In this document: positions 8,106 through 62,277 of the stretch, piece after piece
Numbering within the stretch: the first letter of the stretch is position 1
How the letters are laid out: each line of letters opens with the position of its first letter
Origin: Thermodesulfobacteriota bacterium
GTDB taxonomy: Bacteria; Desulfobacterota_D; UBA1144; Nemesobacterales; UBA2774
DNA length: 64,000 bases
Assembly (NCBI GenBank): GCA_040754335.1
Contig: JBFMCV010000002.1
Coordinates: 434,001-498,000, forward strand
Reading direction: 5' to 3'
The notes under the pieces: model-generated
What the model was told of the DNA's origin: nothing
What the model saw: only the letters and a program-made list of their open reading frames with translations
Databases searched by the model: none
Made by a program: the position numbers and the translations under genes

Positions 8106-8590
8106 TTCCTTAGGCATGAGCAGGAACAACCCGTTCGTGCTGAGCTTGTCGAAGTATGGACGGGTTGGGCTATGGTTGTTGGGAGGGCGGAGGAGGTACA
8201 AAAGAGGCGGAGGAGGTACAAAAAAATAGTAGAAACACACTGTGTGTGGATTTCCGAGAAATGCATCCGGGAATGACAAAAATATTCGTAATTAAGGTAC
8301 ACCCCCACCCTTAACCCTGTTTTGTTTTAGGCAACATTGAGCTGGAAGTTAATGTGCCTCTGTGTCGCTGTTCCAGGGCGACTGATTGCACGCTCGCTTG
8401 CAATCATCCCTCCAATAGAGGGGGAGGGAAATAAATTTGAAAGACTGGATAGCCATGCGGTGTTTAGCCCCAGTAACGGCGAAGTAGTACAGCTCCTCCC
8501 TATGTAAAAACCATTTCCATTTCCGCCGCCCTTATTTTATAGTTCTTGTATAAGAATATTCCAACTTTTCATTCATACCCGGAGGCCGTC
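8106..8590. other. Intergenic repeat region
   Basis: No gene is supported. It contains a CGTTCGTGCTGAGCTTGTCG-type repeat (about 8129-8165), a 20-base tandem duplication (8186-8205 and 8206-8225, GGCGGAGGAGGTACAAAAGA), a CACACTGTGTGTG palindrome near 8234-8248, and an invading element copy (8317-8408) inside a CCCCCACCC...GGGGGAGGG palindrome. Confidence 0.6.
8317..8408 (+). repeat. Hairpin-invading element, copy 1
   Basis: Starts TGTTTTGTTTTAGGCAACA and ends in the hairpin GATTGC-ACGCTCGCTT-GCAATC (about 8383-8404). Flanked by the two arms of a C-rich/G-rich host palindrome (CCCCACCC and GGGGGAGGG). Confidence 0.7.
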
Positions 8591-9121
8591 GTGACAAGAG
8601 CGTCGATCGCTGTTCTGTTGCTTGCGTTTCTATTCATATCCGCGGAGGGAGCGCGTGCCGCCCAGAAGCCTCCTGACGTCTTCGGCTGGGACAAGCTCAA
8701 ATGGGGCATGACCGGGGACGAGATAAAGGCCGCATACGGGAAGGAGATAAAGGTGCACAAGGCGAGGGAGGACGCGAGCGAAGGCGTCTTCAGCAACCTC
8801 GAGCTCACTGGAATCTCGATCGGCGGCGAGCCCTTCAGGGCGAGCCTCTGGATGGGCACCGGCACGAAGAAGCTCTCGAAGATAGTGTTCGTCCCCAGGG
8901 GCGAGCCCGAGGGATACGCCTGGGCCGGGACTTTCATAAAGGTCGAGGAGTATCTCGTCTCAATGTACGGCGACCCGGATCAGGAAGAGACGTCAAACGA
9001 CCCCGGCACGTCAGCCGAGCGCAAATGGGCGTTCCCTTCTACGACGATCGAGCTCTCGTACCTGCGAATCGAAGGCACGGAGCTCCTGCTGCTAGTGTTC
9101 TCGGAGATCCCGAAGTCATAG
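8591..9121 (+). CDS. Secreted WGM-motif protein, related in pattern to the upstream gene
   Basis: A 176-residue protein from GTG 8591, which sits 5 bases after GGAGG; the longer open frame from 8546 adds residues before a clear signal peptide and is rejected. The signal peptide ends near ARAA. The mature part begins with WDKLKWGMTGDEIKAAYG, the same WGM motif as in the gene at 7569, and continues as an alpha/beta domain with no cysteines. It is probably periplasmic. The two proteins may be distant paralogues with different locations. Function unknown. Confidence 0.65.
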   Translation: MTRASIAVLLLAFLFISAEGARAAQKPPDVFGWDKLKWGMTGDEIKAAYGKEIKVHKAREDASEGVFSNLELTGISIGGEPFRASLWMGTGTKKLSKIVFVPRGEPEGYAWAGTFIKVEEYLVSMYGDPDQEETSNDPGTSAERKWAFPSTTIELSYLRIEGTELLLLVFSEIPKS

Positions 9122-9821
9122 AAATAGGGGGGTTATCTTTCCGGCTGTCGGCGGCCATGGAAATCTCACCCCTTCCTGTCTTTGCGAGCCGCAGGCGAAG
9201 CAATCTCATGATAAAAGCGAGATCGCCACGACCACTTCGTGGTCTCGCGAAGACGGAAAAAGGCTGTCTTTGCGAGTCCTTCGATGTACTCAAGACAGGC
9301 TCCGCGTGGCAATCTCATTCTTTTTTCTGTCATTCCCGAATAACGGTTCTGAACGTGTGCAAGAACCGGTCACTCACGGTTGATTGCAAGTTAGCCCCAT
9401 TATTCCGACGCACAAGTATCACAAGCCAGAACAAATCGGGAATCCATATCTTTAAATCAAAACAAGAAAAAACTAGATTCCCGATCGGTGTCGGGAATGA
9501 CAAAAAAATAGATCGCCACGTCGCTTCCGACTTCGCCATCCTACTTCGCTAATCCCCCGACGGCTCATAGCCTATGGGCGACGTGCCGAGCTTCGAAGGA
9601 TAAAAAGGCTACACCGGATCACCCTACGGCTCAAAGCCTTCGGGTGACGTGCCGCAAGCAGTGCGAACGGGTTTGGTTGAATGAATGAAAGGTGTCACCC
9701 CCACCTTAATCCTCCCCCCTCAAGGGGGAGGAAATTTATTTGTGGGTATTCACCCGCCGCCGATTCTGTGAATGTCGGGAAAGACAAACCCCCCCGCGAT
9801 GACGGGAAAAAAGGCCTCGTG
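9122..9821. other. Intergenic repeat region
   Basis: No gene is supported. It contains inverted copies of the GAGATCGCCACG/CGCAATGAC-type repeat (about 9180-9320), an invading element copy (9340-9435) splitting an ATTCCCGA/TCGGGAAT palindrome, an uninterrupted copy of the same palindrome at 9478-9502, and a CCCCCACC...GGGGGAGG hairpin (about 9700-9732). The occupied and empty palindromes lie within 50 bases of each other. Confidence 0.65.
9340..9435 (-). repeat. Hairpin-invading element, copy 2
   Basis: Inserted between TCATTCCCGA (9330-9339) and TCGGGAATCC (9436-9445). In its own orientation it ends with the CGGTTCT/AGAACCG hairpin with loop TGCACACGTTC. It aligns over its whole length with the copy at 51296-51390, which occupies the same kind of palindrome in the other direction. 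Confidence 0.8.
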
Positions 9822-10586
9822 CTATTTCCCTATATTCTGCAGCGCTTCCACGAGAGGCTCGCTCGGCATGCGGAGAACCCCGTCGAACGGCCTGTTGAGC
9901 TCCATTATTACAAAGAGCGCGAGCGTGACGGCCAGTGCGGATATTATGAGCGTCGCCACTACAGTCCCGTTCGTCGGGGCGTAGAGTCCGAAGCTGAAGA
10001 ATATGGCGACGAACCAGAAGAGGATTATGCCCAGCAGGATGAAAAATACTCCGGGAATAGACCTCGTCTGCCCCATCACGAGCGTGTCGCGCGCCTGCGC
10101 GAGGTCGTATGTGAGTGAAACCGCCTCGTCGCGTATCGCGCGCCTGACATCGTTGTCCGGAGTAAGAGAGAGGATTTGGTAGTAAAGGGTTTCTGCTCTG
10201 GATTCGGGCGTCTCTATCATCGCACCTCCGGAGCCGTCTTTGGGCCAGAACTGATTAATAGTGCGTTCGAGCGAGCTGCGCAGCACCTGGCGTGCTCCTT
10301 CCGCCCCGGGTCCGTAATCGGCGAGCAGCTTGTCGAGGAAGATTATCTTGGCCGACATGTCTATGAGGTCGCTGCGCTGGTTGTTGAAATTGGTCTGCGC
10401 CCCCTGTATCATGAGCCCGACCGCGAGCGCCGCCATGGTGGCGACGATTCCCATGCCGATCGTGACCATGTTCCTCGATTCGTCGCTAAGGTGACGCTCG
10501 GGCAGCATTTTGCGGAGGAATATGCCGATAAACGCTCCTCCGATTATGCACACGAATATGATGAGACTGATTACTACCGCTTTCAA
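9822..10586 (-). CDS. DUF4239-type membrane protein
   Basis: A 254-residue integral membrane protein with four probable membrane segments: two near the N-terminus (about 2-24 and 40-62) and two near the C-terminus (about 180-205 and 215-238), with a soluble middle part. This layout and the segment MGIVATMAALAVGLMI match the bestrophin-like DUF4239 family, whose function is unknown though channel activity is suspected. The start chosen is TTG 10584-10586, 7 bases behind GGGAGG and at the onset of the hydrophobic segment; an ATG at 10662-10664 would add 26 polar residues. It is divergent from the transporter gene at 10827. Confidence 0.7.
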   Translation of the reverse strand: MKAVVISLIIFVCIIGGAFIGIFLRKMLPERHLSDESRNMVTIGMGIVATMAALAVGLMIQGAQTNFNNQRSDLIDMSAKIIFLDKLLADYGPGAEGARQVLRSSLERTINQFWPKDGSGGAMIETPESRAETLYYQILSLTPDNDVRRAIRDEAVSLTYDLAQARDTLVMGQTRSIPGVFFILLGIILFWFVAIFFSFGLYAPTNGTVVATLIISALAVTLALFVIMELNRPFDGVLRMPSEPLVEALQNIGK

Positions 10587-10826
10587 GACGCACCTCCCGG
10601 CGGGATCTCCTTCTTGCTGGTTGAGCGGGCTGCGGGTCTGTTCATGGGATACCGCTGCCGCCATCCCGTTTCGCCGATATAGACGTATTTATAAATCAAT
10701 GCGAGGAAAAATTCAATAAACGTCTCACAATCCCTCCCCGGCTTCACCTGCGGGTTGACATTTAATACGCCGTAATTACATTTACCGCACCCGCGCCTGA
10801 CGGGCCGGGCTGCCCGCGCCCTATCC

Positions 10827-12350
10827 ATGAACAGAGAACATTCCCACAAGTGGCTTACGCTCATCGCGATGACGGGGTCGCTCTCCATGATCTTCGTCGA
10901 CCAGACGGTCGTGAGCGTGGCGCTCCCGAGGATACAGTCCGACCTTGCCGTGTCGCAAACGGGCCTCGAATGGATTGTGAACGCGTACGTGCTCGCTCTC
11001 GCGGTCACTGTCGCGCTGGGCGGGAAGCTTGGGGACATATTCGGGAGGGTGCGCGCTTTCGTCACGGGCGTAGTCGTCTTCGCGGTAGCCTCGGCGCTGT
11101 GCGGCCTCGCGCCCGATGAAGGCGTCATAATCGCCGCCCGCGCTCTCCAGGGCCTGGGCGCGGCGCTCATGCTGCCGTCTTCCGCGGCGATTGTCATCGA
11201 ATCGTTCGACATAAGGGAGAGGGGGAAGGCGATGGCGATATACGTAGGCGTGGCGCAGGCGTTCCTCGCGTTAGGCCCTCTGTTAGGCGGTTTCCTGACC
11301 GAGTACCTCTCCTGGCGGTGGGTGTTCTGGATAAACCTCCCGGTGGGCGCGCTCGCTATCCTGATGACCTGGTATTCCAAACCCGCCGGAATGGAATCCG
11401 CCGGAGGCAAGGTGCGGCCCGCATACGCGCTTTTACTCATACTCGGCATGTTCGCGTTCGTGTTCGGGCTCCAGCAGGGGCACCTCTGGGGGTGGTCTTC
11501 GCCCGTGACGCTCGGCTTCCTCGCATCAGGGCTCGTGCTGCTCGAAATATTCTCGTTCATACAGATAAAGAGCGACGACCCGCTCATACAGCTGAGGCTC
11601 TTCAGGAACCCGGCGTTCGCGATAGACTGTGCGCTCCTCTTCTGCATACAGTTCGCCATGATAAGCCTGATAGTCTTCGGCGCTATTTACCTCCAGAAGA
11701 ACCTCGGGTTCACGCCTTTGCAAGCGGGGCTCGGGATCATGCCCATCATCATCGCCGTGGTGATAATGTCCCAGGTGTCGGGCCGCCTCTTCGACAGGGT
11801 GGGGGTGAAGGTCCCGGCTCTCACGGGAGCGTTCCTCATCGCGCTCGGCTTCTTCGCGCAGGCGCCTTTCCTCGAAGGGGGCGATTTCTTAAAGGTGCTG
11901 CCGGGGATGATAGTGCTCGGCTTCGGGATCGGGTTCGTCATGGTGCCGACTAGCACGGACGCGCTTAACCGCGCGGGGAGCGAGTACAGGGGGCAGGCCT
12001 CGGGCGTCGTGCAGACGATGAGGCAGATAGGTGCGACCGTGGGGCTCGCGTCGATAGGCGGGCTCGTGGCTACAGTGCAGAAGGGCGAGGTGTCGGGGAT
12101 TATAAACGGGTTCGCGGGCCCTGACAGCGTGAAGGCGGGCCTCGCGCCCCTCGTAGACGGCGCGCTCAAGGGACAGGCGGACGCGATAAGGGAGCTCACG
12201 GCGGTCTCGCCCGCGCTCGTCGCGGAGTTAAACGCCGGAGTGGCGAGGAGCATTGCGGCCGGGTACTACTTCGCGGGCTCTGTCGTGCTCGCGGCCTTCT
12301 TCGTCGCGCTCATATTCATGCGCACGGGCAGGCAGAGTGAAGACGGGTGA
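10827..12350 (+). CDS. MFS multidrug exporter, DHA2 (EmrB/QacA) family
   Basis: A 507-residue transporter with about 14 membrane segments, as expected for the drug:H+ antiporter-2 family. Signature stretches include the N-terminal DQTVVSVALPRI, NAYVLALAVTVALGGKLGD, LQGLGAALMLPSS and the motif-C-like region ALGPLLGGFLTEYLSWRWVF in segment 5. It likely exports lipophilic compounds using the proton gradient. No membrane-fusion partner or TetR/MarR regulator adjoins it. A second member of the family lies at 59401. No clear ribosome-binding site precedes the ATG. Confidence 0.9.
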   Translation: MNREHSHKWLTLIAMTGSLSMIFVDQTVVSVALPRIQSDLAVSQTGLEWIVNAYVLALAVTVALGGKLGDIFGRVRAFVTGVVVFAVASALCGLAPDEGVIIAARALQGLGAALMLPSSAAIVIESFDIRERGKAMAIYVGVAQAFLALGPLLGGFLTEYLSWRWVFWINLPVGALAILMTWYSKPAGMESAGGKVRPAYALLLILGMFAFVFGLQQGHLWGWSSPVTLGFLASGLVLLEIFSFIQIKSDDPLIQLRLFRNPAFAIDCALLFCIQFAMISLIVFGAIYLQKNLGFTPLQAGLGIMPIIIAVVIMSQVSGRLFDRVGVKVPALTGAFLIALGFFAQAPFLEGGDFLKVLPGMIVLGFGIGFVMVPTSTDALNRAGSEYRGQASGVVQTMRQIGATVGLASIGGLVATVQKGEVSGIINGFAGPDSVKAGLAPLVDGALKGQADAIRELTAVSPALVAELNAGVARSIAAGYYFAGSVVLAAFFVALIFMRTGRQSEDG

Positions 12351-16483: not shown

Positions 16484-16578
16484 AAGAACGGATGCGAACG
16501 AGTGAGCATTCGGACGTCATTACAACAAAGGCGCCTAAGCAATTCAAATCCCGGCTGGATGTTTATTAAGACCAAATA
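16484..16578 (-). repeat. Hairpin-invading element, copy 3
   Basis: Lies between CCCTCCTTTGGAAA and GGTAGGGAGG. In its own orientation it starts TATTTGGTCTTAATAAACAT and ends with the hairpin CGAATGC-TCACTCGTTC-GCATCCG. It is nearly identical to the copy at 42793-42888, with about four base differences over its length, all transitions. Confidence 0.85.
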
Positions 16579-16842
16579 GGTAGGGAGGATTTTCTTTCCT
16601 TATTTTAAATCCCCCTTAATCCCTCCTTCGACAAGCTCAGGACGGGCTCTTTTTCTAAGGGGGAAATTTTTATTCATTCAACTGGTGGTGTGATGAGTAA
16701 GTTCACACTGGACAGGTAAGCAGCGAAAAATCTATATAAATATTTCTCATTCAGGAATAACGCTTGTAAACAACAGCTCTGAGAAATTGAGCAATTGATC
16801 GCTATTGGTTGATGGCAACAAGATGACCCCAACCTCACAACG

Positions 16843-17613: not shown

Positions 17614-20600
17614 TTAAACCGACGACTTTCTCCGCGTCTCTTTAATATGACCGTCGAGGGTGACGGGTGAGACGACGGGGTCTCTGTGCAGGTCTGGCGC
17701 GAGGCTGAACTCGTACACTTCATCTCTCGTCCTCTCCGTGAGCGGGACGAAGAGTATGCCGGTCAGTATAACGACGAGGGAAATATAGACGGCCGTGTTC
17801 ACGGCATACGGCTTTATCAGCTCCGCGATCAGCGGGTGCGCTGTTATCAGCCCGAGCGCGAGGAGCGATACGGAGAAGAATAAAATCCTCTTCGGCCACG
17901 GCCTCACCGGCGTCGAGAGCCACCACCTCCAGAGGGAAGGCTTCGAATAGTTCTTCCATACGTTCATGAGGACGCGGTTCACTTCGGATGTATTTTCAGG
18001 ATTCATGCGCGCGCATTCCCTGAGCGCCGCGACCGTTTTATCGTAATCGCCGAGCCTGAAGAGGCACCTCGCCTTGAAATAGAGGACGTCGGATAAAAGT
18101 TTCGCGTCTTTATCGCCGAGCTTCTTCATCTCCCGCGGCATCCACGGCGGGAGCGTTTCGTCTCTCTCTTCGGGCAGGGTCAGCCTGTGAGCCTTGTCGA
18201 GCGCGCTCAATACGGACGAGATCCTGTCCCTGTATACGTTTACGTCGTCGGCGGAATACGTCTCGGCCGAGAGATAATCGGCGTATGCCCGCCACAAGAG
18301 ATTCGCCGGGTTGCCGGGGTCGCGCTCCAGCGCCTCGCTGAACGAAACGGACGCAGACCCGTACTCCAGCCCTGCTAACTCTATGAATCCCCTCGCCGCC
18401 ACGAGCCCTGCGTCTTTGCCGATCTCTGAAATCGCCTTCTCCGCGGTCTCGCGGGCCTGCTCTATGCTCCCGAGCGCGAGGTAGAGGCTCGCCTTCCCTA
18501 TACGAGGCTCCGTCCACCATCCCGCAATGCCCCTCGCCCTCTCGAATGCGGATTCGGCCGCCCTGAAGTCCCCGAGCTCGTATAGCGCGAGCGCCTTGTT
18601 CAACCACGCGGGCGCGTTTCCGGGGTCAAGCCCGATCGCCCTGTCGTACGCCTCTATCGCGTCCGCATATTTTTTCATGTGGTATAACGCCGCGCCCTTG
18701 CCGTTCCACGAGGAGGAGTCGCCTGGATCGGCGGCGATGACCTTATCGAATGAATCCGCCGCTTCCGCGAACCTCCCCGAATATACGAGCGCGACCCCTC
18801 TCCCGTACATGGCGCGCGCGCCGCCCGCGTCGAGAGCGAGAGACCTGTCGAAAGCCCTGACCGCATCCGCGTACTTGCCTGCGGACGCGAGGGCCTCGCC
18901 CATCCGCGCCGGATAGCCGGCATCGGCTGCGTTCAGCTCGGACGCGCGAGCGTATGCCTCCGCGGCCTGGGAGTATTCGCCGAGCTCAGCAAACGCCTCG
19001 GCCTTCCCCCGCCAGGCGCGCTCCGACGAACGGTCGAGCACTAAAGCGCCGTCGAAGGATTCGAGCGCTTCGCCCGTGTGCCCAATTCTCAGCAGCGCAT
19101 CTCCCTTCCCCCTGTGCGCAGGCTCGTATCCGGGGTCAGTTGCGATCGCGCGGTCGTACGCCTGTATCGCGTCCCCCGGCGCGCCCATGCGTGAGAGCGC
19201 GTCGCCTTTCCCCGTCCACGCGCGGGGGTCCGTGCGGTCGAGCTCAATAGCCCTCTCGTAAGAGCCGAGGGCTTCAACGAGACTGTCCAGACCGAGGAGC
19301 GCGTCTCCTTCCCCTCGCCACGCGGGCTCGTGCCCGGGCGTAACGGTTATCGCGCGCCCGAATATCTCCCGCGCTTCTGCGTATTTTCCGATACGGTTTA
19401 ATGCGTCCCCTTTTTTCGTGAGAGCGTCCGGGTCGCCCGGCAATATCGTGATGGCATCCTCGTACGATCTCACCGCTTCCTCGTATCTCTTCATTCCGGC
19501 AAGCGCGTCCCCCTTCCTCAGATACGGGACCGGGTCGTCAGGTCTTAATTTAAGCGCGAGCTCGAAAGCGCTGGCCGCATCGCCGAACTTCCCTATGCCG
19601 TAGAGCGCGTCGCCCTTGGCTATCCATGCGGCGTGCGAGTAGGGGTTTATCTTTATCGCCTTGTCGTACGAGTCGAAAGCCTCGTCGTATCTCCCGAGCG
19701 CGGCGAGCGTCCTGCCTTTCTCAATTAGCGCGTCCGCGCGCGAGGGTTTGACTTTCACGGTCTCGTCGAATAGGGCTATAGCGTCGCCTGTCCTGCCGAG
19801 GGACGCAAGCGCGCGTCCTTTTTCGTAGAGCGCGTCCGCGTATGCGGGGTTCAGCCTGAGCGCCCTGTCGTACGCCTCTATCGCGTCCGCGTATTTGCCG
19901 AGCTCCGCAGAGGCCCGGCCCCTGCTGTACCAGTCGTTTTCGTAATCGGGTTTTATGCCTATCGCGCGGTCGTACGCCTCTATTGCCGCGTAATTGTTGC
20001 CGAGCCTTGAGAGCGCGTGCCCCTTCCTCCTCCATGCGTGATGGAGGTCGGGGTCGAGCCCGGTCGCCCTGTCGTAGGATTCGATCGCGCTCTCGTCCAT
20101 CCGGAGCGCGAAGAGCGAGTCCCCTCTGCCTATCCATGCCGCGTGCGATCCGGGCGCGAAGCTGACCGCCTCTCCGTACGCGGCGGCCGCCTCGGAGTGC
20201 TTCCCCAGCGCCGTGAGTATCTCGCCCTTGCCGATCCACGCCATGTGGAAATCGAACTCGAACTTGACGGTCTCCCCCGATGCGCCGGATGACCCCGACT
20301 GCTCCCGCATGTAATAAGGGACGAAGCCGTTCCCTTCGGCGGCCTTCAGGTGGCCGGGTTTGAGCCTGATTGCCTCGTCGTACGCGGCGAGCGCCTCCGG
20401 GTATCTGTCCATCGAGGCGAGCGCGTTCCCTTTCCCTATCCAGGCGGAGTAATAATCGGGCCTGAGCTTTATGGCCCTCTCGTATGCGGCGACCGCGCCT
20501 GAGAAATCGCGGTGCACGCAAAGGACGTTCCCCTTCTTGTGCCAGTCCTCGGCCGTGGGGGCCGGCTTGTCCTTCCGGCCGAGCAGGGAAAAGGGAGTGA

Positions 20601-20622
20601 GGAGAGATGTCTTGATGTCCAT
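17614..20622 (-). CDS. Giant TPR-repeat protein with C-terminal membrane hairpin
   Basis: A 1002-residue protein built almost wholly of about 20 tetratricopeptide repeats (roughly residues 25-790). Each is a 34-residue unit with the typical pattern of Trp/Gly/Ala/Tyr positions (for example AWIGKGNALASMDRYPEALA, then AYDEAIRLKP). One insert of about 15 residues after repeat two (around MREQSGSSGASGE) breaks the register. Residues about 905-965 hold two membrane segments near the C-terminus, followed by a cytoplasmic tail. There is no signal peptide, so the repeats most likely face the cytoplasm and act as a scaffold tethered to the membrane. The partner is unknown. Confidence 0.85.
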   Translation of the reverse strand: MDIKTSLLTPFSLLGRKDKPAPTAEDWHKKGNVLCVHRDFSGAVAAYERAIKLRPDYYSAWIGKGNALASMDRYPEALAAYDEAIRLKPGHLKAAEGNGFVPYYMREQSGSSGASGETVKFEFDFHMAWIGKGEILTALGKHSEAAAAYGEAVSFAPGSHAAWIGRGDSLFALRMDESAIESYDRATGLDPDLHHAWRRKGHALSRLGNNYAAIEAYDRAIGIKPDYENDWYSRGRASAELGKYADAIEAYDRALRLNPAYADALYEKGRALASLGRTGDAIALFDETVKVKPSRADALIEKGRTLAALGRYDEAFDSYDKAIKINPYSHAAWIAKGDALYGIGKFGDAASAFELALKLRPDDPVPYLRKGDALAGMKRYEEAVRSYEDAITILPGDPDALTKKGDALNRIGKYAEAREIFGRAITVTPGHEPAWRGEGDALLGLDSLVEALGSYERAIELDRTDPRAWTGKGDALSRMGAPGDAIQAYDRAIATDPGYEPAHRGKGDALLRIGHTGEALESFDGALVLDRSSERAWRGKAEAFAELGEYSQAAEAYARASELNAADAGYPARMGEALASAGKYADAVRAFDRSLALDAGGARAMYGRGVALVYSGRFAEAADSFDKVIAADPGDSSSWNGKGAALYHMKKYADAIEAYDRAIGLDPGNAPAWLNKALALYELGDFRAAESAFERARGIAGWWTEPRIGKASLYLALGSIEQARETAEKAISEIGKDAGLVAARGFIELAGLEYGSASVSFSEALERDPGNPANLLWRAYADYLSAETYSADDVNVYRDRISSVLSALDKAHRLTLPEERDETLPPWMPREMKKLGDKDAKLLSDVLYFKARCLFRLGDYDKTVAALRECARMNPENTSEVNRVLMNVWKNYSKPSLWRWWLSTPVRPWPKRILFFSVSLLALGLITAHPLIAELIKPYAVNTAVYISLVVILTGILFVPLTERTRDEVYEFSLAPDLHRDPVVSPVTLDGHIKETRRKSSV

Positions 20623-21497: not shown

Positions 21498-21815
21498 GGC
21501 TTTAATAAAATCCTCCCTAACCCTCCTTTTCGAAAGGAGGGGACTAAATACCTAATGAATCTTTTTCCCCCTTTGTAAAGGGGAACAATTCCGAGCAAGC
21601 GAGGAATTGGTCGATGTCGGCTAGCGGCAAAGGAATTCCTTAATCGAAGTGTCTCAGCAAGTTAAGCCAAATTCAGTGGGATTTTGAATTTTCGTCCTTC
21701 GAGAAGTTCATGAGGAATTGGTCCGGGCCCCGGCTTGCCACCATCCCGAATGATGGTAAAATTCTGATGGCCGGATAAAGTATTCCGGTCTCGGGTCGGG
21801 GGCTGGCGGCTATAA
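21498..21815. other. Intergenic repeat region
   Basis: No gene is supported. A paired hairpin repeat (21508-21585) has its second hairpin split by an invading element copy (21583-21676), after which GTGGGATTTT continues the host repeat. A GGTCCGGGCCC palindrome is near 21720-21731. Confidence 0.6.
21583..21676 (-). repeat. Hairpin-invading element, copy 4
   Basis: Inserted after CCCCCTTTGTAAAGGGG of a host hairpin. In its own orientation it begins near TGAATTTGGCTTAACTTGC and ends with the hairpin CAATTCC-TCGCTTGCTC-GGAATTG. Confidence 0.75.
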
Positions 21816-22514: not shown

Positions 22515-22547
22515 GGGGCGGAGTTTTTTTGGATTTGTCATTCCCGA

Positions 22548-22641
22548 AACGATTGTGATGAATAAGAGCAACCAGTCGCAGCCGGATGATTGCTTAGATA
22601 TCTATTGTTCATGAGCTTCGGCAAGATAAGCTAAATCTTTA
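22548..22641 (-). repeat. Hairpin-invading element, copy 5
   Basis: Inserted between CATTCCCGA (22539-22547) and TCGGGAATCC (from 22642). Its terminal hairpin is imperfect (GGTTGC...CAATCG in its own orientation). A REP-like sequence follows at 22673-22696. Confidence 0.7.
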
Positions 22642-22783
22642 TCGGGAATCCAGTTCTTTAAATCTAATTCAATCGCGGCTGGAAGCCGCTCCTACAATTC
22701 TTTGTCATTTCGAACAACGGTTCTTGCACACGCTCAGAACCGTTACTCGGGAATGACAAACTTCTTGGTCCTGAGCAGCTCTC

Positions 22784-26247: not shown

Positions 26248-26340
26248 GCAACGATTGCGAGCAAGTGAGCAATCGGACGCCATACGCAAAAGGCAATTAT
26301 GTTCCTATACATTGGAATGAAGTGATAATAATATAGTGCG
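26248..26340 (-). repeat. Hairpin-invading element, copy 6
   Basis: In its own orientation it ends TATGGCGTC followed by the hairpin CGATTGC-TCACTTGCTC-GCAATCG. It is flanked by the GCGAGG and CGTGGCGA arms of another repeat family. Confidence 0.7.
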
Positions 26341-26395
26341 ACGTGGCGATCTCATATTTTTCAGGAGATTGCCGCGCTACACTCACTATCGTTCC

Positions 26396-26487
26396 GTAAT
26401 TTGGGTTGTGTGACTCTTTAGCATCAATACTTTAGCATTCTTGCAATCAGCCGAAGGCAACCGATTGCTCTTATTCATCGCAATCGT
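26396..26487 (+). repeat. Hairpin-invading element, copy 7
   Basis: Starts GTAATTTGGGTTGTGTGACT and ends with the hairpin CGATTGC-TCTTATTCATC-GCAATCG, whose loop is less conserved than in other copies. The flanking sequence CGCAATGACA is a half of a common host repeat. Confidence 0.65.
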
Positions 26488-26534
26488 TGCTCGCAATGAC
26501 AGGAATATTAATGTACACACTTCGCCCTTAACGC

Positions 26535-28484: not shown

Positions 28485-29049
28485 CGCTTTACCCCCGGTG
28501 TATGAATCATGAACCGGCCCGTACCTGCTGATCCCCTGAGGACTGTAAACGCTGCCGGTAACGTTCGCCGGTCAACGATAAAATTCTAACACAAATGATC
28601 GTCGGAAATAAAGGGGGTAGGGGAGGGTGCGAGATGCAGGATGCGGGATACAGGAGGAGGGATGGTGTTCTATGACCATTCGTCCTGAGGCGCAGAACCT
28701 GCGCACGTATACAAACCTTATGTCACCCCTTAGCTTAGCCAAATAATGGAGCCATAATAATACTTAACTGCGCGCCTGTCCTGAGCGAAGTCGAAGGATC
28801 GAAGGATGAGCGGATGCTGAAAGAAAAAATCCTCCCTCGCCCTCCTTTCTCTAAGGAAGGAGTTGAAAAAGCAAAAGACGAGATTCTGAAACGATCCTGA
28901 AACAAGTTCAGGACATGGTTCAGAATGACAACTTAAAAAAACTGGATTTCTCCCCCTGCTCTCGAAATGACAATAAAGCATGAGCCCGTTCACAACTGGA
29001 AGTGCTGAATAAATCTGGTAAAATCCTTGCGGAAGAGAAACACCCTGCC
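28485..29049. other. Intergenic region with repeats
   Basis: No gene is supported. It holds the upstream region of the activator gene, a short degenerate tandem (GATGCAGGATGCGGGATAC, about 28633-28651), a CCTGTCCTGAGCGAAGTCGA-type repeat (about 28775-28803), a CCCTCC/GGAAGGAG hairpin (about 28839-28861) and a TGAAACAAGTTCAGGACATG-type palindrome (about 28895-28925). Confidence 0.5.
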
Positions 29050-32503: not shown

Positions 32504-32505
32504 TT
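32461..32505 (-). repeat. Hairpin-invading element, partial copy at a gene end
   Basis: ACGACTGCGAGCAAGTAAGG followed by AGTCGGACGCCATTGG matches the terminal hairpin and the conserved GGCGTC part of the element as seen in copy 6 (26248-26340). It forms the 3' end and stop codon of the IPTL-CTERM gene. How far it extends to the right is unclear. Confidence 0.55.
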
Positions 32506-32785
32506 GCGGAAGAGGGAATTGCACTATGCGACGCGGGAGCGGAAACAATAAGAGAAGGGCAGCTGCTGTCTGATGCGAGATAATGTCCTGTAACCCGTTC
32601 ATACTTCGACACGCTCAGTACGAACGGGTTTTTCTTTTTTGCTGTCATGCTGAACTCGTTTCAGCATCTCGTCGTTTCTTTTTTTGATTTAAAGGTATGG
32701 ATTCCCGATACAAGAGAGGGGAATCAAAAGACAAATAACTGTAGGAGCGGCTTCCAGCCGCGATACTCTTTTTTGTCATGCTGAA

Positions 32786-32876
32786 CTACGGTTCTGAACA
32801 GGTGCAAGAACCGGACGCCATAGTAAGAATGCAACGTAGAGATTGCTCCTCGGATATAATTTGTTAATCCAAAATA
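32786..32876 (-). repeat. Hairpin-invading element, copy 9
   Basis: Lies exactly between GTCATGCTGAA (32775-32785) and TTCAGCATCTCG (32877-32888), the two arms of a host palindrome present empty at 5167-5190. It aligns well with the copy at 45538-45627, including the TATGGCGTCCGGTTCTTG core. Confidence 0.85.
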
Positions 32877-39207: not shown

Positions 39208-39303
39208 ACCTTTATTTGGGTCAGGCAACGACGAGTAGGGATTGAGCAACTCCCCCGACTTTGTTGCGGTAGTGACCGATTGCTCTTGTCCATCACAATC
39301 GTC
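39208..39303 (+). repeat. Hairpin-invading element, copy 11
   Basis: Starts ACCTTTATTTGGGTCAGGCA and ends with the hairpin CGATTGC-TCTTGTCCATC-ACAATCG. Host flanks are CACCCCCATCC and CCCTCAAGGGG. It fills most of the 39052-39348 gap together with a CCCCCCTTTAGCAAAGGGGGG hairpin (39097-39118). Confidence 0.65.
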
Positions 39304-39348
39304 CCTCAAGGGGCAAGGAGTTATTAATAAGGACGAACAGGACGATGT

Positions 39349-39633: not shown

Positions 39634-39943
39634 TCTGGAAAAGTATATTGGATATCGCGGGGAAGGGAATTGTTTCTTTTCCTGTCATCCTGAACCCTGT
39701 CCCGGACATGTTCCGGGATCTATTCAGGATCTCATCTTTTTCATGAGATTGCCGCGCGGAGTTTATCCTGAGCGTAATTGAAGGACTCGCAATGACAGGA
39801 TCATAATTTACACCCCCACCCGATCCCTCCCCCTCTGTGAGGGGGAGGGAAGTATTAAAGATTCAGCATGAACGGGATATGCAAATGTTGCCGGTCGTGC
39901 AAAAGATTCTCGGCAGAATCATAAAACACACTACGTGTGTGCG
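39634..39943. other. Intergenic repeat region
   Basis: No gene is supported. It contains a GTCATCCTGAACCCTG...CAGGATCTCATC palindrome with a CCCGGACATGTTCCGGGA inner hairpin (about 39683-39732), a GAGATTGCCGCGCGGAGTTT...CGCAATGACA repeat (about 39743-39798), a CCCCCACCC...GGGGGAGGG hairpin (about 39811-39850), and CACACTACGTGTGTG (39927-39941) right at the end of the next gene. Confidence 0.55.
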
Positions 39944-40849: not shown

Positions 40850-41129
40850 TCGGCACGGAAGGTGTTAGTAGGGGCGAATACGAAAATCCTCCCTAACCCT
40901 CCTTTTCCAAAGGAGGGAATTAAGACTTAGAAGCGATAGCAATTTCCCCCTTAGAAAAAGGGGGAGGGGATATTATCGGAGCAATCTCGCTTTATTGTCA
41001 TGCTGAACTTGTTTCAGCATCTAAACTTTTTCATGAGATTGCCACGTTGCGCTAACTTCGTTAGCTCCGCTCGCAAAGACAAGAGAAGAATGCACCTTTC
41101 TTGGCTGTTAGTCCGGTCGGTCGACATCC

Positions 41130-42501: not shown

Positions 42502-42792
42502 GGTGGGTTACGTTTGGCGGGTTCCGCGTATAACTCGAGCGAAGTCTGCAGCGAGATGACATCTCCATAGTAGGAGCGGCTTCCACCCGCGATGGAATGA
42601 AACCACAAAGGCGAGATTCCCGATCGGCGCCTGCCCTGAACCATGTCCCGTACTTGATACGGGATCTATTCAGGGTCGGGAATGATAAAATCATTTTCCC
42701 CCTTAGAAAAAGGGGGATTTAGGGGGATTAAGTCTTTCAAGTTAAATTGGACAAGATAAAGAAAAGGAAAAATAAATATAAATCCTCCCTAC

Positions 42793-42888
42793 CTATTTGG
42801 TCTTAATAAACATCCAGCCGGGATTTGAATCGCTTAAGCGCCTTTGTTGTAATAGCGTCCGAATGCTCACTCGTTCGCATCCGTTCTT
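42793..42888 (+). repeat. Hairpin-invading element, copy 12
   Basis: Between AATCCTCCCTACC and TTGCCAAAGGAGGG. It is nearly identical, in reverse orientation, to the copy at 16484-16578, and carries the hairpin CGAATGC-TCACTCGTTC-GCATCCG. Confidence 0.85.
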
Positions 42889-43085
42889 TGCCAAAGGAGG
42901 GAATATAATGATAAATATAATGATAGAGGATGAGATTGCCGCGTCACTTCCGGCTTCGCCATCCTCCTCCGCCAAGGCTTCGGAGGACAAGAGGCTACGC
43001 CGGACGAGTCGCTCCTCACAACGACAGGTTTTATTATCGCGGCTGGAAGCCGCTCCTACAAAAGGTATCACCCCCATCCTCACCT

Positions 43086-43178
43086 TAATTTGGTTTAGGC
43101 AGCATTGAGGCTGAAGTCGATTGGACACATCGGCTTCGTTGTAGGTCCGACCGGTTCTTACGCACGCTAAGAACCGTC
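43086..43178 (+). repeat. Hairpin-invading element, copy 13
   Basis: Starts TAATTTGGTTTAGGCAGCAT and ends CGGTTCT-TACGCACGCTA-AGAACCG. Host flanks are CACCCCCATCC and CCCTCAATGGGG. Confidence 0.8.
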
Positions 43179-43214
43179 CCTCAATGGGGAAGGAATTATT
43201 GTGTGGTATTCTTC

Positions 43215-44513
43215 TTACCTCAACTCGCTTCTGTACGTCTCCTTCGCCATCAGCACCGCAATCAGCGAGATCGCCGAAGAGGCGGCCAGGTATATCCCGG
43301 GCGCGGTGACGTCTCCTGTCCTGTCGATGAGGTAGGACGCGATGAGAGGCGCCGAGCCGCCGAATACCGAGAACCCGATGACGTTCCCCATCGATATACC
43401 GCTCATCCTCACCCGCGTCGGGAAGCTCTCGACCATGTAGGCCGCGAACGCCCCCGCGAAGAGCACGTTCATGAGCCCTGCTCCGAACTGGACTATAATC
43501 TTGAGCGGGAGGTCGTCCCCGGCGAACACCCTGAACAGCAGGTAGCCCATGACGACCTCGCCCGCGCACCCGATGACGAGTGCGGGCTTCCTCCCGGCCC
43601 TGTCCGAGAAGTATCCGCTCAGCGGCACTAGCATCGTGCAGAGCGCCAGGTTGAGCGTGTTTATGTTGAGTATCTGCGAGAGAGTCATGCCCCCGTATCT
43701 GGTCGCGTACGTCGGGAGATAGACGAAGATGAGGTAGAAGCTCACGGCGAACATTATCGTCGCGGCGAGGATTATGAGCACCGGCTTCCAGTGCCCGGTG
43801 AGGGACTCTCTCACCGGGGAATCGGACGTCTTTCCCGACTTCTTGAGGTCGAGGAACATACCCGACTCCTCGACGGTTTTTCTAAGGAAATATGCCGCGA
43901 CGCCGGATACAGTCCCGAGGAGGAACGGTATCCTCCATCCCCACGAGAGGAGCTCCTCTCGCGTGAGCGCGCTCGAGACGAGTCCGCATACGAGCGAGGC
44001 GAGGAGTATCCCCGCCGTCGTGCTGAAGAGGGACATGCTCCCGTAAAGGCCGCGGAGGTTGGGCGGGGCCAGCTCCGCAAGGAGGGATAATGTCGCAGAC
44101 CTCTCCCCGCCGACCGAGAGCGCCTGGGCGATTCTCAGAATAATGAGGAGCACCGTCGCCGCGATGCCTATTCCCGCATAAGCGGGGAGGACGCCTATAA
44201 GCACGGTCGGGAACGTCATCAGTATCACTGTGAATATGAACGCGTTCTTCCTGCCAAACCTGTCGCCGAGGCTCGATATGACGACCGAGCCCAGCGGGCG
44301 GAACAGGAAGGAGAGCGCGAAGACCATGAACGTCGAGAGGAGGGCGGTCGTCTCGTCGGTGAACGGGAAGAAGAGCTCGGAGAGCACGACCGCGTAGAAG
44401 CCGAAGATCGAGAAGTCATACCATTCGAGGATAATGGCGAGGGAGCTCGCGACGACTGTTTTTTTGTGGGGCAGGAGCTGGGCAGTTTGCGCGGGCTTTT
44501 CGACGGGGGGCAT
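43215..44513 (-). CDS. MFS transporter, metabolite:H+ symporter (MHS/ProP-like) family
   Basis: A 432-residue transporter with 12 membrane segments. The N-terminal segment LAIILEWYDFSIFGFYAVVL and the loop GDRFGRKNAF are typical of the MHS family (ProP, KgtP, ShiA). LSVGGERSATLSLLAELAPPN corresponds to the usual G-E-x-x-G-A region, here altered. Family substrates are organic acids, betaine, proline or shikimate taken up with protons. No linked catabolic genes tell which. Confidence 0.88.
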   Translation of the reverse strand: MPPVEKPAQTAQLLPHKKTVVASSLAIILEWYDFSIFGFYAVVLSELFFPFTDETTALLSTFMVFALSFLFRPLGSVVISSLGDRFGRKNAFIFTVILMTFPTVLIGVLPAYAGIGIAATVLLIILRIAQALSVGGERSATLSLLAELAPPNLRGLYGSMSLFSTTAGILLASLVCGLVSSALTREELLSWGWRIPFLLGTVSGVAAYFLRKTVEESGMFLDLKKSGKTSDSPVRESLTGHWKPVLIILAATIMFAVSFYLIFVYLPTYATRYGGMTLSQILNINTLNLALCTMLVPLSGYFSDRAGRKPALVIGCAGEVVMGYLLFRVFAGDDLPLKIIVQFGAGLMNVLFAGAFAAYMVESFPTRVRMSGISMGNVIGFSVFGGSAPLIASYLIDRTGDVTAPGIYLAASSAISLIAVLMAKETYRSELR

Positions 44514-45511: not shown

Positions 45512-45537
45512 GGCAAAGACAAAAATGAGATGCTGAA

Positions 45538-45627
45538 CATTTTGGGTTAACCAATATTATCCGAGAACAATAGCTGCATTGCACTCTGCCTATGGCGTCC
45601 GGTTCTTGCGCACGCTCATAACCGTAG
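45538..45627 (+). repeat. Hairpin-invading element, copy 14
   Basis: Exactly between TGCTGAA (45531-45537) and TTCAGAATGAC (from 45628), the arms of a host palindrome. Starts CATTTTGGGTTAACCAATAT and ends TATGGCGTC then CGGTTCT-TGCGCACGCTC-ATAACCG. Confidence 0.85.
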
Positions 45628-45710
45628 TTCAGAATGACTGAAAAGAAAGGAGTGTCAGGGGTCCTTACGGAGAGAGAGATACCCCTGACACCGGTTTTGG
45701 CGGACTGTTT

Positions 45711-49351: not shown

Positions 49352-49499
49352 GAGCTAACTATATCAGAATGCTAAAAGAAAATCCTCCCTGACCCTCCTT
49401 TTTCTAAGGAGGGAATTAGAGCACGAAAGACGAGATCCTGAATAGATCCTGAAACGAGTTCAGGACATGGTTCAGGATGACTAAATTATCACTCCATCC

Positions 49500-51230: not shown

Positions 51231-51746
51231 AACAAAAATTTTCCCCGAATTGAAGAAAAATTGTTGGCGAGGATTATAAGGAAATGGATTCCCGATTTAT
51301 TTTGGCTTGTGAATCGTGTCTGCCGGAATAAAGAGGCTCGATTGCAATCAGCGGAGGACGACCGGTTCTTGCGCACCTTCATAACCGTTATTCGGGAATC
51401 CACTCTTTATAATAATCTGTAGGAGCGGCTTCCAGCCGCGATAATCCCGTTCGCCCTCTTGATAATTCTCTCTCCCTTGAGGGAACGATTGCGAGCTGGT
51501 GAGCATTCGTTCTCTGCCTAAGGAGGGAATCAAGGTAAAAAACGAGATTGCCGCGGCTCATTCTGAGCCTCGCAATGACAGTATTGTTGGCCTTTGCGTT
51601 CGGGACGCAGAGGCCGGCGGGGAAGGATTCATATATGGAAGTATTTCAATATATAAAACCACTTAACAATGCCCTCAAAATGTGTCAATATAGTATCGTG
51701 TCGATATGAATTTGGAGTATATAATATAATGAGAGGGGGTATGTAT
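51231..51746. other. Intergenic repeat region
   Basis: No gene is supported. It contains an invading element copy inside an ATTCCCGA palindrome (51296-51390), a REP (51419-51441), a partial invading hairpin CGATTGCGAGCTGGTGAGCA (about 51486-51505) within CTCCC/GGAGGG arms, a GAGATTGCCGCGGCTCATTC/CGCAATGACA repeat (about 51543-51582), and a TATCG-TGT-CGATA small palindrome (51694-51706) upstream of the next operon. Confidence 0.55.
51296..51390 (+). repeat. Hairpin-invading element, copy 15
   Basis: Between GGATTCCCGA (ending 51295) and TTCGGGAATCC (from 51391). Starts TTTATTTTGGCTTGTGAATC and ends CGGTTCT-TGCGCACCTTC-ATAACCG. Full-length match to copy 2. Confidence 0.85.
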
Positions 51747-55012: not shown

Positions 55013-55542
55013 TGATAATTAATTATAACAATTCGAATTGCATTATTGCAAATCACATAATTTAACAGCCTGAGAAAGAGTGGATTATTTTCACCCCCAT
55101 CCTAACCTTCCCCCCTCAAGGGGGAAGGAAATTTAAATAAATGGGTAGATTGCCGCGGCTCTATCAGAGATTCGAAATGACAGATCTTTTGTCTTCGCGA
55201 GGGAGCGCCTGTCCTGAACCATGTCCTGAACTTGTTTCAGGATCGCTTCAGGAACTCCGATCCGGGATTGTTTCAGGATCGCGACCGTGGCGATCTCTCT
55301 TTTTCCTGATTTTGCAGAGGTGAACGATAGGACAATAAAGACGCTACGTATTGTTGCCGCCGATTATTTCTACTTCCTGAATTCTTCGCTGTAGGGGACG
55401 AAAGTTGTCGTAGCCGAAAGGCTGCCAGTCTGACGGCCCGAATGACTCGGATAGGTGTGCTCGATAAGATACGTGTAGAGCCAGCCGCCGGGGACCCTGT
55501 CTACCGTATAGTTGGGGAATTCGATGCGCTCGTGGAGCTTCA
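55013..55542. other. Intergenic repeats and one uncertain small gene region
   Basis: Up to 55370 no gene is supported. It holds a CACCCCCATCC...CCCCCTCAAGGGGG repeat (about 55090-55128), a GATTGCCGCGGCTCTATCAG/CGAAATGACA repeat (about 55147-55183) and a long complex palindrome built of CAGGATCGC/GCGATCTC units (about 55195-55305). From 55370 it is occupied by the small gene listed next. Confidence 0.5.
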
Positions 55543-58708: not shown

Positions 58709-59400
58709 CATAGCTGCCTCCCCGCAAGCATTAAATGTCCTGTCATATTTGTACTTCAAACGTTATACCACAAGACCGCGGCTATTAAAACCGGGACAAC
58801 AGCAATTAAAAACATTATCAGCTGCGCGAAACGGCAGCCTATGACATTTCGTATCCTCAATAATTTCCTCTCCCCTTGAGGAATGGTTCTGAGCGTGCGC
58901 AAGAACCGGTCGGAGCCACCACTAAACTGATGCGACCAATCGACTTCAGCCCAAATTCCTCTAAACCAAATTAGGTTAAGATGTGTGTGTCATCACCCGT
59001 TCATTATTTCAAAAAACCGTTCGTACTGAGCATGTAGAAGTATGAGCGGGTTTACATATTAAAGTACCCCCTCACCCTTCACCCTCTCCCACATGATAGG
59101 GGAGAGGGAAATAATTGTAGTACTTCGACAAGCTTCCGGCTCCACGAAGGCTTCCCCCTTCGCCAAGGCTTCGGGGGACGGGACGCCGGACAGTCCGGCT
59201 TCGCCTACAGGCTTCGCCGGATCACCTGACGGCTCAAACCTTCGTGGACAAACGTGGGTGATACCCGTTCAACCCTTCGACAAGCTCAGGGCGAACGGGT
59301 TATGTTATTGGTTAGAGCAGAGTAGATAGAGAGAATCGTAAAATCACACTATGTGTGTGCGGTTTACATTTGCGGCGTATAGTGTTTACTTTACGGCTTT
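58709..59400. other. Intergenic repeat region
   Basis: No gene is supported. It contains an invading element copy (58881-58973) inside CTCCCCTTGAG and CACCC-type arms, a CCGTTCGTACTGAGCATGTA...GAGCGGG repeat (about 59019-59051), a CCCCCTCACC...GGGGAGAGGG hairpin (about 59066-59110), a set of CGCCAAGGCTTCGG/CCGAAG inverted pieces (about 59125-59245), a CCCTTCGACAAGCTCAGGGCG palindrome (about 59273-59300) and TCACACTATGTGTGTG (59346-59361). Confidence 0.6.
58881..58973 (-). repeat. Hairpin-invading element, copy 16
   Basis: In its own orientation it starts TAATTTGGTTTAGAGGAATT and ends CGGTTCT-TGCGCACGCTC-AGAACCA. It is similar along its length to the copy at 43086-43178 and sits in the same type of host repeat in the opposite direction. 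Confidence 0.8.
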
Positions 59401-60990: not shown

Positions 60991-61156
60991 CGGCGGGGGT
61001 CTCCCGGCCGGAAACCCTCGCAATCATATACCGTATTCTCAACGCCCTAAGAAACCCGTTGCAGTCCGCGTCTCCACGCTTTAAAATCTTATTGTTCGTA
61101 ATTCGGTCGGGGTGCGCGAGCGTCCCGGCCGTCGAACGTCACGGGGGGATACGGCC

Positions 61157-61774
61157 ATGCTTAAAAACACGTCCTTCATAATGTTCTGCGTTACTGCGAT
61201 CGTTATATCGGCGGGGTGCGCGAGCCTGGCGGGGGACGAGGCCCCTCATGTGTGCGGCGGGGCGCTCGAGGTCGCATGCCCGGACGGGCAGTTCTGCGAA
61301 ACGCCCGCGGGCAAGTGTTCCACGGTCGGGATCGAGGGTCTCTGCACGGACAAGCCCCAGATCTGCACGAGGGAGTATAAGCCCGTATGCGGGTGCGACG
61401 GCAGGACATACGGGAACGACTGCGAAAGGAAATCGGCCGGGGTGAGGAAGGACCACGACGGGAAGTGCGGCGAGGCCGCGAGCTCGCGCAAGGAGCCGGG
61501 ACAGGCGTGCGGAGGTCTCGACAACGTCAAATGCCCGGAGGGGCAGTTCTGCGAGATACAGTTCGGGAGGTGCAAGGGGTTGAACGAGATCGGGGAATGC
61601 ATGGTGAAGCCCGAGATGTGCACGCAGGACTACGTGCCCGTCTGCGGGTGCGACGGCAAGACCTACGGGAACGACTGCGCGAGGATGGGGGCCGGCGTGG
61701 CGAAGGACCACGACGGGGAATGCGGGGTGGCGGAGGAAGAAGCGGAGCCTGAGGAAGAGGAGCCGGAGAAATAG
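61157..61774 (+). CDS. Lipoprotein with two Kazal-type inhibitor domains
   Basis: A 205-residue lipoprotein. The signal ends with lipobox ISAGC (Cys20). It has two repeats of about 80 residues, each made of a short Cys-rich lead (CPDGQFCETPAGKCS and CPEGQFCEIQFGRCK) and a Kazal domain (PVCGCDGRTYGNDCERKSAG and PVCGCDGKTYGNDCARMGAG). Kazal domains inhibit serine proteases by substrate-like binding. The C-terminal tail is Glu-rich. ATG 61157 is used since the lipobox follows it at the right distance; GGGGGG is upstream. It may protect the envelope against secreted proteases. Confidence 0.9.
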   Translation: MLKNTSFIMFCVTAIVISAGCASLAGDEAPHVCGGALEVACPDGQFCETPAGKCSTVGIEGLCTDKPQICTREYKPVCGCDGRTYGNDCERKSAGVRKDHDGKCGEAASSRKEPGQACGGLDNVKCPEGQFCEIQFGRCKGLNEIGECMVKPEMCTQDYVPVCGCDGKTYGNDCARMGAGVAKDHDGECGVAEEEAEPEEEEPEK

Positions 61775-62094
61775 GTGCGGAATTAAAGATTGAGGGGAAA
61801 TTAATTGTTCATTCGTAGTTTTCCCCCTTTGACAAAGGGGGATTTAGTTTTATCCCGTTTGTCCTGAGTTTAGCCTGTCCTGAGCGAAGTCGAAGGGTCG
61901 AAGGACGTGCTATTTATCCTGTCTTTGCGAGCGGAGCTGACGAAAGTCAGCGTAGCGCGGCAATCTCCTGAAAAATATGAGATCGCTACGATCCAAATAC
62001 GCTCTCGCGATGACAGTAAGGTTTTGTCACTCTGAGCCATGTCGTGAACTCGTTACAGGATCGTTTTAGAATCTCGTTTTAAATCCTCCCTAAC

Positions 62095-62277
62095 CTATTT
62101 TGACTTTAGCAACATTCAACCGGAAGTTAATTTACTACTATGACTTTGCTGTCATGGAGTCCGGTTCTTACTATTATGGCTTCTGTTGCTACGGTGCGAA
62201 GAATTAGTAAATTTCGTGGACTCATCCATTAGAGACCAATTCCTCATTCGCTCGGAATTGTTGCTCAGAACCGTTCT
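62095..62277 (+). repeat. Hairpin-invading element, copy 17 (nested double)
   Basis: Host arms are AATCCTCCCTAACC and CTAAAGGAGGG. The outer copy starts TATTTTGACTTTAGCAACAT and reaches CGGTTCTTA at 62162-62170. The matching half CAGAACCG follows only at about 62266-62273. Between the two halves lies a second copy ending CAATTCC-TCATTCGCTC-GGAATTG (about 62237-62260). So one element sits in the terminal hairpin loop of another. Confidence 0.8.

Follow-up and report, generated by a model that had tools for sequence, protein, structure and literature searches.

A repeated element of about 95 bases with a hairpin end, placed at palindromic repeats and in its own copies, in a family of uncultured Candidatus Dadabacteria

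Short palindromic repeats that may enter one another have been described in bacteria and in organelles. The repetitive extragenic palindromes (REPs) tagged with CGTC, among them RPE-4 and RPE-6 of Rickettsia and dRS3 of Neisseria, are short hairpins in high copy number that have no associated transposase and whose mode of movement the published account leaves open (Di Nocera 2013; PMC3733652); some REP dimers are on record inside palindromes. REPs tagged with GTAG are DNA hairpins associated with TnpA_REP (RAYT, a Y1 HUH enzyme) and a single-strand mechanism, and the S. maltophilia enzyme is described as cutting at CT. The IS200/IS605 elements and their miniature derivatives are likewise single-stranded, strand-specific and ended by hairpins. 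Short palindromes often inserted into one another are also known from the organelles of Volvox carteri (PMC2670323), where their movement is a matter of speculation, and as repetitive hairpin elements in sponge mitochondria (PMC2800124). Here, we analysed a stretch of 64,000 nucleotides from a Thermodesulfobacteriota bacterium (assembly GCA_040754335.1, contig JBFMCV010000002.1, positions 434,001 to 498,000; hereafter the window), in which a hairpin-ended element of about 95 bases recurs within or beside other palindromes (the hosts). We consider it probable that this element is a non-autonomous, strand-specific mobile DNA hairpin, similar to REPs or miniature inverted-repeat transposable elements (MITEs), which is aimed at other hairpins. 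A first-pass annotation of the window had stated that no described family matches. This holds for the element itself, of which no account was found in searches of an open-access library, and is too broad for its surroundings, since some hosts resemble CGTC-tagged REPs and palindrome-in-palindrome precedents exist.

The repeated element is real: all 17 copies originally listed align over about 95 bases and have a common 5' motif and a covarying 3' hairpin. In consensus order, it consists of a start near TTTGGYTTA, a variable middle often ending at about TTGCAATCAGCC, the sequence GGCGTCC or GCGACC, a 7-bp hairpin and GTT; its length ranges from about 75 to 98 bases, with the DNA hairpin at the recognisable end, usually preceded by CGWC. 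The window holds 16 occurrences of the 5' motif TATTTTGGYTTA with at most two mismatches, where 4.6 would be expected. The supposedly conserved loop TCGCTYGCTC did not stand up, being not enriched on its own (13 in the window against 15.4 expected); the loops fall into several types, which go with particular stem types. A covariance model built from the 17 copies, as the first-pass annotation had proposed, and termed R1, yielded further copies in the genome and in its relatives, with rough E-values and with the 17 seed copies, unlike the remaining matches, matching by construction. At least 150 R1 matches were found in the 3.26 Mb genome at E <=1 (150 of 641 candidates scored), and 172 at E <=0.1 in 440,550 bases of genome stretches, the window among them; the latter, together with a copy at 62093 that is interrupted by another, form the set of 173 used below. 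By a simple open reading frame (ORF) caller, 33 of these 173 overlap an ORF, the set being mostly intergenic. The 17 separate sites hold, with the correction that the entry at 62095 comprises two nested elements, the inner one at 62170-62264; two more copies were added to the window, at 32461-32555 on the minus strand (38.5 bits, a weak copy overlapping the end of ORF 31973-32503, host unclassified) and, as a 3' hairpin alone between TGTCATTTCGAAC and TCGGGAATGACA, at 22718-22746 on the plus strand (26 bits).

Like the CGTC-tagged REPs, the element has short hairpins, a high copy number and no associated transposase. In a span of 16 bases around the foot of the stem, CGTC or CGAC is present in 114 of the 173 copies, present with one base off in 47 and absent in 12, as raw counts unscaled to chance. 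The REPs of that type have a stem of 8-9 bp starting with AT, a loop of 4-5 bases and a CCA tail, whereas the element has a 7-bp stem starting with C, a loop of about 10-11 bases and a GTT tail. It also departs from them in its conserved body before the hairpin, its insertion in its own loop and its units at tRNA ends. It is rather the host TGTCATTCCCGA..TCGGGAATCCA that looks by eye like a member of the CGTC type, with a TGTC tag, a stem starting with AT and a CCA tail, and the GTCAT-type hosts resemble such REPs.

The 3' hairpin covaries strongly. RNAalifold placed two-sided changes at six of its seven pairs in the 17-copy alignment, and across 150 aligned copies 95.6% of 1036 stem cells pair, with 239 cells showing two-sided changes and 12 showing one-sided changes, while sliding the partner by 1-3 columns lowers pairing to 22-54%. 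The alignment was fitted to the model structure, which inflates the 95.6% but does not explain why G-U intermediates are nearly missing. The claim that both sides of the stem change together is borne out, apart from one of its examples, CTACTTC/GAAGCAG, which holds an A-C mismatch. G-U intermediates are common in RNA helices; their near absence from this stem suggests, in our reading, that selection or correction acts on a DNA hairpin. A family of structured non-coding RNAs or transcription terminators lodged in intergenic repeats would explain the mostly intergenic location and the conserved, covarying hairpin, and a slight excess of copies is co-oriented with the upstream gene (94 of the 169 with a known upstream gene, all blocks together). 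Such a family is nevertheless hardly credible: 12 one-sided against 239 two-sided changes leave few G-U intermediates, orientation is independent of the flanking genes in the strand-locked blocks described below, the element nests recursively in itself and forms units at tRNA 3' ends, and no Rfam family matched the window at the gathering score. The same points tell against the structured RNA carried by repeats that had been offered as one explanation, and covarying intergenic hairpins in metagenomes consequently need not be RNAs. No plasmid similarity was found for window positions 42700-43250.

The element is found at several kinds of palindromes, which it enters in different ways (strand and R1 score are given in brackets). 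In the window, it occupies the loop of TTCCCGA palindromes at 9340-9436 (minus, 71.7 bits), 22546-22641 (minus, 45.7 bits) and 51295-51391 (plus, 74.7 bits), the loop of TGCTGAA palindromes at 32785-32877 (minus, 57.2 bits) and 45537-45628 (plus, 65.1 bits), a GCGAGG palindrome at 26248-26337 (minus, 57.7 bits) and a GCGAGG-type palindrome at 26394-26490 (plus, 69.6 bits); seen by eye, it lies in the loops of the hosts GGATTCCCGATTAAGACATTCGGGAATGACA and GAGATGCTGAAACAAGTTCAGCATGACA, where a few bases have been lost. In CCTCC hosts, at 16485-16581 (minus, 79.9 bits), 42791-42887 (plus, 81.3 bits) and 62093-62276 (plus, end approximate, R1 E 1.2e-8 at C2:496093), the element either takes the place of some of the 5' arm or precedes, on the 5' side, a hairpin that is intact. 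In CCCCC hosts, part of the 5' arm is present on both sides of the element, which lies 5' of the CCCCC hairpin at 21582-21677 (minus, 74.7 bits), with CCC(CC)T repeated either side, and at 31623-31717 (minus, 73.5 bits). Finally, CACCC hosts carry it at 8315-8410 (plus, 76.1 bits, host read from the flanks), 32927-33023 (plus, 72.2 bits), 39209-39305 (plus, 63.2 bits) and 43083-43180 (plus, 80.3 bits), and a CACCC-like host at 58880-58976 (minus, 64.1 bits). The sense of the element relative to its host is constant in the copies listed. The position between the two arms of a host, which the first-pass annotation had given for all copies, thus applies, as judged by eye, to the TGCTGAA, TTCCCGA and GCGAGG hosts and to the element's own hairpin; also by eye, the 5' arm of CCTCC, CCCC and CACCC hosts is adjoined or replaced by the element. 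The host palindromes also occur without it: in the window, leaving out rows of filled copies or other repeats, 10 CCTCC, 7 CCCCC and 4 TGCTGAA hosts are empty.

Simple rules assigned the set of 173 to 25 CACCC, 24 GCGAGG, 20 CCTCC, 14 TGCTGAA, 11 TTCCCGA and 8 CCCC hosts, 29 own hairpins (two of them doubtful) and 8 tRNA ends, with 34 unplaced; looser rules placed 20 of the 34, and 8 of the last 14 were recognised by eye as outer halves split by a nested unit. Arm-pairing scores separate the nested, TGCTGAA, CCTCC, CCCC, CACCC and TTCCCGA classes from any-swap controls, and do not separate GCGAGG (4.44 against 4.12) or tRNA sites (5.00 against 4.75); within CCTCC, CCCC and CACCC, own arms pair no better than arms swapped within the class because these hosts are alike. 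A degenerate copy of the host's right arm in the element body, that is, a hidden long target duplication, was considered and is not supported, own flanks scoring much like foreign ones in four of seven classes; a slight apparent excess for own flanks was seen in CCCC (5.38 against 4.05-4.99), TTCCCGA (5.36 against 4.31-5.19) and nested copies (5.24 against 4.41-4.91). Of the two marks of a MITE of a DDE transposon, terminal inverted repeats and a short target duplication, inverted ends are not seen by eye in the element alignment; tRNA sites do have direct repeats.

The element is also found in its own hairpins. The copy at 62093-62276 has its 3' hairpin CGGTTCT...AGAACCG split by the inner element at 62170-62264 (plus, 49.2 bits), leaving outer arms of 7 bp. 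Altogether, 28 copies have a GWC-tagged stem start just upstream, and in 23 of the 28 the matching 3' arm follows directly downstream with 5 bp or more (in 18 with 6 bp or more), as compared with a mean of 5.9 and a maximum of 14 matches in 2000 permutations of the right flank; two of the five misses (L083:10852 and 16609) are probably not nested at all. The tallest stack of this genome, at L080:3596-3830, has three units and that of the relative G003 has four, R1 reporting two in each and the rest being seen by eye; in the four-unit stack a recognisable 3' arm is kept in three units. By eye, one inner subfamily is found in outer units of CCTCC hosts (L083:9631 and window 62170) and of a TTCCCGA host (L082:17212), with a more distant inner subfamily in a CACCC unit (L080:2062); the presence of one inner subfamily in outer units of different hosts indicates that inner units move independently. 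The palindromes of Volvox and sponge organelles differ in their setting, and the accessible parts of those two papers describe no strand lock, no host-specific subfamilies and no recursion in a 3' hairpin loop. By eye, nested copies seem to have a C|T junction at either end, as in TnpA_REP cutting; we make no claim for it. Simple REPs inside the loop of another REP, e.g., GATTCTGAA[ACGATCCTGAAACAAGTTCAGGACATG]GTTCAGAATGAC, are present in the window at 28874-28929, 35637-35692, 49426-49481, 39681-39728, 42627-42674 and 55205-55252; these six sites have the pattern of nested dolls without the 95-base element.

Sites defined by their position between matching genes were compared with those in relatives; differences in filling may reflect either gain or loss of the element, and host repeats may have been acquired independently. 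The element is present in this genome and the site empty in the relative at L063:1571 (against G003) and at the window copy at 32927 (against G002, whose left side is masked by a run of N, so that the right flank alone is common). Conversely, a GCGAGG-type palindrome at 41035-41081 of the window (plus, from the site comparison) and a CACCC host at L063 ~14600 are empty here and filled in G003, the latter with a nested unit, and the single unit at 39209 corresponds by eye to the four stacked units of G003. At L063:1293 and 2227 the element is missing in G003, where no clear host was seen, and three further sites were either filled by different units in both genomes or had no common flank.

Subfamilies are largely host-specific, with repeated host switches, so that both the spread of host-element composites and new insertion are needed. 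On a copy tree of 150 copies (127 host-labelled, 91 columns), weakly resolved with 81 of 147 inner branches open, the host label changes 20 times, compared with 82.5 times when shuffled and a minimum of 6.

The orientation of the element is locked per chromosome block, independent of genes, and mostly follows GC skew. C2 beyond 517 kb carries 38 plus elements and one minus element, with coding bases amounting to 36.2 kb plus and 30.8 kb minus (simple ORF caller), and the plus copies are spread evenly over the four configurations of flanking genes (11, 9, 9 and 9). The counts are 2 plus and 18 minus in C1 355-672 kb, 20 plus and 1 minus in C7+C5+C3, 5 plus and 23 minus in C4+C6+C8, and 37 plus and 28 minus in the remaining genome, window included. 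Sense agrees with the sign of the skew in 56 of 65 copies, taken from the 11 of 17 element-bearing stretches of at least 7 kb in which the strand-balanced coding skew reaches 0.03 or more in either direction. Empty hosts, located with seven patterns, share the lock in C2 beyond 517 kb (75 to 7), C7+C5+C3 (18 to 1) and C1 (0 to 6), and are unlocked in C4+C6+C8 (11 to 13) and in the genome outside these blocks (33 to 22). The G-rich strand is the leading strand in most bacteria; the sense of the element, being mostly on the G-rich strand, would then correspond to the lagging-strand template. The single large-subunit rRNA match has minus sense and lies close to a weak flip of the skew, but the coding bases of C3:285-305 kb are mostly plus; we therefore name the G-rich strand and assign neither leading nor lagging strand. 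Insertion into single-stranded hairpin loops, proposed in the first-pass annotation, is thus favoured by self-nesting with matching arms, by the filled and empty sites and by the empty hosts, and a single-strand route by the orientation lock, but it is not universal, some hosts being entered at the 5' arm and tRNA sites having direct repeats.

Enzymes that could move such an element were sought in the 13 carrier genomes. The suggested Y1/RAYT partner was not borne out: Y1_Tnp matched at E 0.001 in one carrier, this genome, and in none of the 12 others. Its sole match is a RAYT-like gene at C8:99575 (L056 ~11430-12030, G000:C8:99430-100030), situated between GTAGGAGCGGC..GCCGCGA-type hairpins. 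If the composites were REP units spread by TnpA_REP, since lost in most lineages, and the loop insertions REP-copying mosaics, this one gene could be a remnant; Y1 enzymes typically show strand specificity and act on hairpin ends (PMC6006769), host and subfamily are linked, and the RAYT-type GTAGGAGCGGC repeats, written opposite to the element sense, are themselves locked in C2 beyond 517 kb (0 to 19) and C7+C5+C3 (0 to 5). They show no lock in C1 355-672 kb (5 to 2), in C4+C6+C8 (2 to 3) or elsewhere in the genome (7 to 9). We regard this origin as unlikely, given that the lone RAYT is flanked by its own GTAG repeats with the nearest element match about 0.9 kb away, that no GTAG tag is seen by eye at the element hairpin, and that the genomes with filled and empty sites, G002 and G003, share the lack of a Y1 match. 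The element thus resembles the GTAG-tagged REPs in being a DNA hairpin with partly locked copies and a single-strand route, and differs in tag and enzyme; from IS200/IS605 it likewise differs in having no TnpA match in most carriers, no fixed flanking motif by eye and hairpins as targets. The reverse transcriptase of retroelements (retrons, group II introns, bacterial short interspersed elements) is absent, RVT_1 matching in 0 of 13 carriers and solely in the element-free G012, and the DEDD transposase of IS110/bridge-RNA elements that target REPs was found in one of 13 (PF01548 in G001). Among the families searched, Y1 enzymes, reverse transcriptases and IS110 transposases hence provide no common driver, though any of them may have been a driver in the past.

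According to the reading that we prefer, of a mobile DNA hairpin aimed at other hairpins, the element would travel in single-stranded form, folding on one of the template strands at the replication fork, and would be joined by an enzyme acting in trans into or beside folded hairpins, namely REP palindromes, the T-arm side of tRNA genes and its own hairpin. Every insertion would bring a new hairpin and so build up nested dolls, and composites of host and element would also spread as units, giving the host-specific subfamilies. The moving enzyme may be lost, host-encoded or new. More tentatively, a new enzyme may recognise folded single-stranded DNA hairpins and insert the hairpin-ended element in their loops, each insertion becoming the next target; it may also spread the transposase-less REPs of the CGTC/TGTC type and enter tRNA T-arms. 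The nested history, the lock and the filled and empty sites would make this genome a readable record of related-looking REP spread where the three usual enzymes are mostly absent, and the missing enzyme is thereby searchable by gene content and testable in vitro.

Several observations weigh against this preferred reading, beginning with the three unsuccessful enzyme searches. No fixed target motif emerged, flanks differing by eye among hosts, and at CCTCC, CCCC and CACCC hosts the position is not in the loop. Host type is so tightly linked to subfamily that much of the spread may be of composites. Nested copies have the sense of the outer copy, which makes the orientation counts partly dependent; empty hosts in C4+C6+C8 are unlocked (11 to 13) while elements there stand at 5 to 23; the stretch L080 opposes its coding skew (6 plus and 2 minus at -0.039); and C7 has 10 plus and 0 minus despite a slightly negative raw skew in five of six stretches, an exception that lowers our confidence slightly. 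The direct repeats of about 11-14 bases at tRNA sites are a further difficulty. It is also conceivable, though distinctly improbable, that no transposase is involved, hairpins on the template strand stalling replication and being opened or by-passed, with a segment captured by template switching or repair and the lock arising from the fork. That none of the three enzyme kinds is common to carriers, that several families of repeats, nested within each other, are locked alike over part of the genome, and that few bases are lost or gained at junctions (by eye) would fit such events. The ends of the units are nevertheless near-constant, lying near TTTGGYTT and after the hairpin, and subfamilies recur across outer elements by eye, implying recognised ends, and the element is confined to one bacterial family among the genomes searched.

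The units at tRNA genes look like a separate subfamily. Those following tRNA-Arg(ACG) repeat its last 12-14 bases from the border of T-loop and T-stem and have differing hairpins; tandem units also follow two sequences resembling tRNA 3' ends without an ARAGORN call (L060, L073), and one unit follows tRNA-Glu (L074). In Dadabacteria RIFCSPHIGHO2_12_FULL_53_21 (L156:287-613), three tandem units, in which two kinds alternate, stand after tRNA-Arg(ACG); they differ from the two that this tRNA has in the window's genome. The tandem units at tRNA 3' ends and their direct repeats call to mind the targets of tyrosine recombinases, and an integron-like or Xer-like enzyme might take palindromic arms for core sites and cross over in the loops, the donors being folded single strands like the attC sites of integrons. 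Each of four genomes of the same genus has two Xer-length matches, and a further 292-aa gene found here has possible orthologues, matches of comparable length, in many members of the family. An exchange of the attC type would swap hairpin arms, whereas nested units keep the whole hairpin. Phage_integrase, a general model not specific to integrons, matches in 16 of 16 family genomes, as commonly in the element-free G004, G011 and G012 (6, 5 and 18 matches) as in the 13 carriers (2-11), and so does not separate the two groups; we regard such a recombinase as very improbable. ARAGORN also called a tRNA-Cys (anticodon aca) at window 21514-21605, overlapping repeats and the element, which is probably a false call.

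Among the genomes searched, the element is restricted to one bacterial family, of uncultured Candidatus Dadabacteria. With stricter filters, and with some of the genomes incomplete, R1 detected it in 13 of 41 genomes, all of this family: four of four in the genus, the window's genome included, and nine of 12 other members, compared with 0 of 25 genomes from other families of the order. A 29-base pattern of the commonest hairpin was found in 22 stretches of the genome collection, all from five Candidatus Dadabacteria assemblies, and in two IMG/VR contigs. One of these two, filed as viral (L181, IMGVR_UViG_3300019458_000510), contains seven R1 matches at E <=0.055 and may accordingly be a bacterial contig or a prophage border.

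Other repeats were observed in the same genome. A longer non-coding repeat with long arms TTAAGGCTAAAATCGTTCA .. TGAACGATTTTCACGCCTTAA lies at L083:16291-16554 and 10700-10900; some of its copies host the element, and parts of it match four places in G001. Around the rRNA, the roughly 80 kb of G000:C3:242000-325000 in L164-L167 contain, by pattern, a single host-type repeat and a single element hairpin, as compared with 82 host-type repeats in 100 kb of C2 beyond 517 kb, where the stretches were chosen for holding matches. In the window, ORF 17614-20622 (1002 aa) contains repeats at multiples of 102 bases between 18584 and 20500, corresponding to 34 residues and resembling tetratricopeptide repeats by spacing only.

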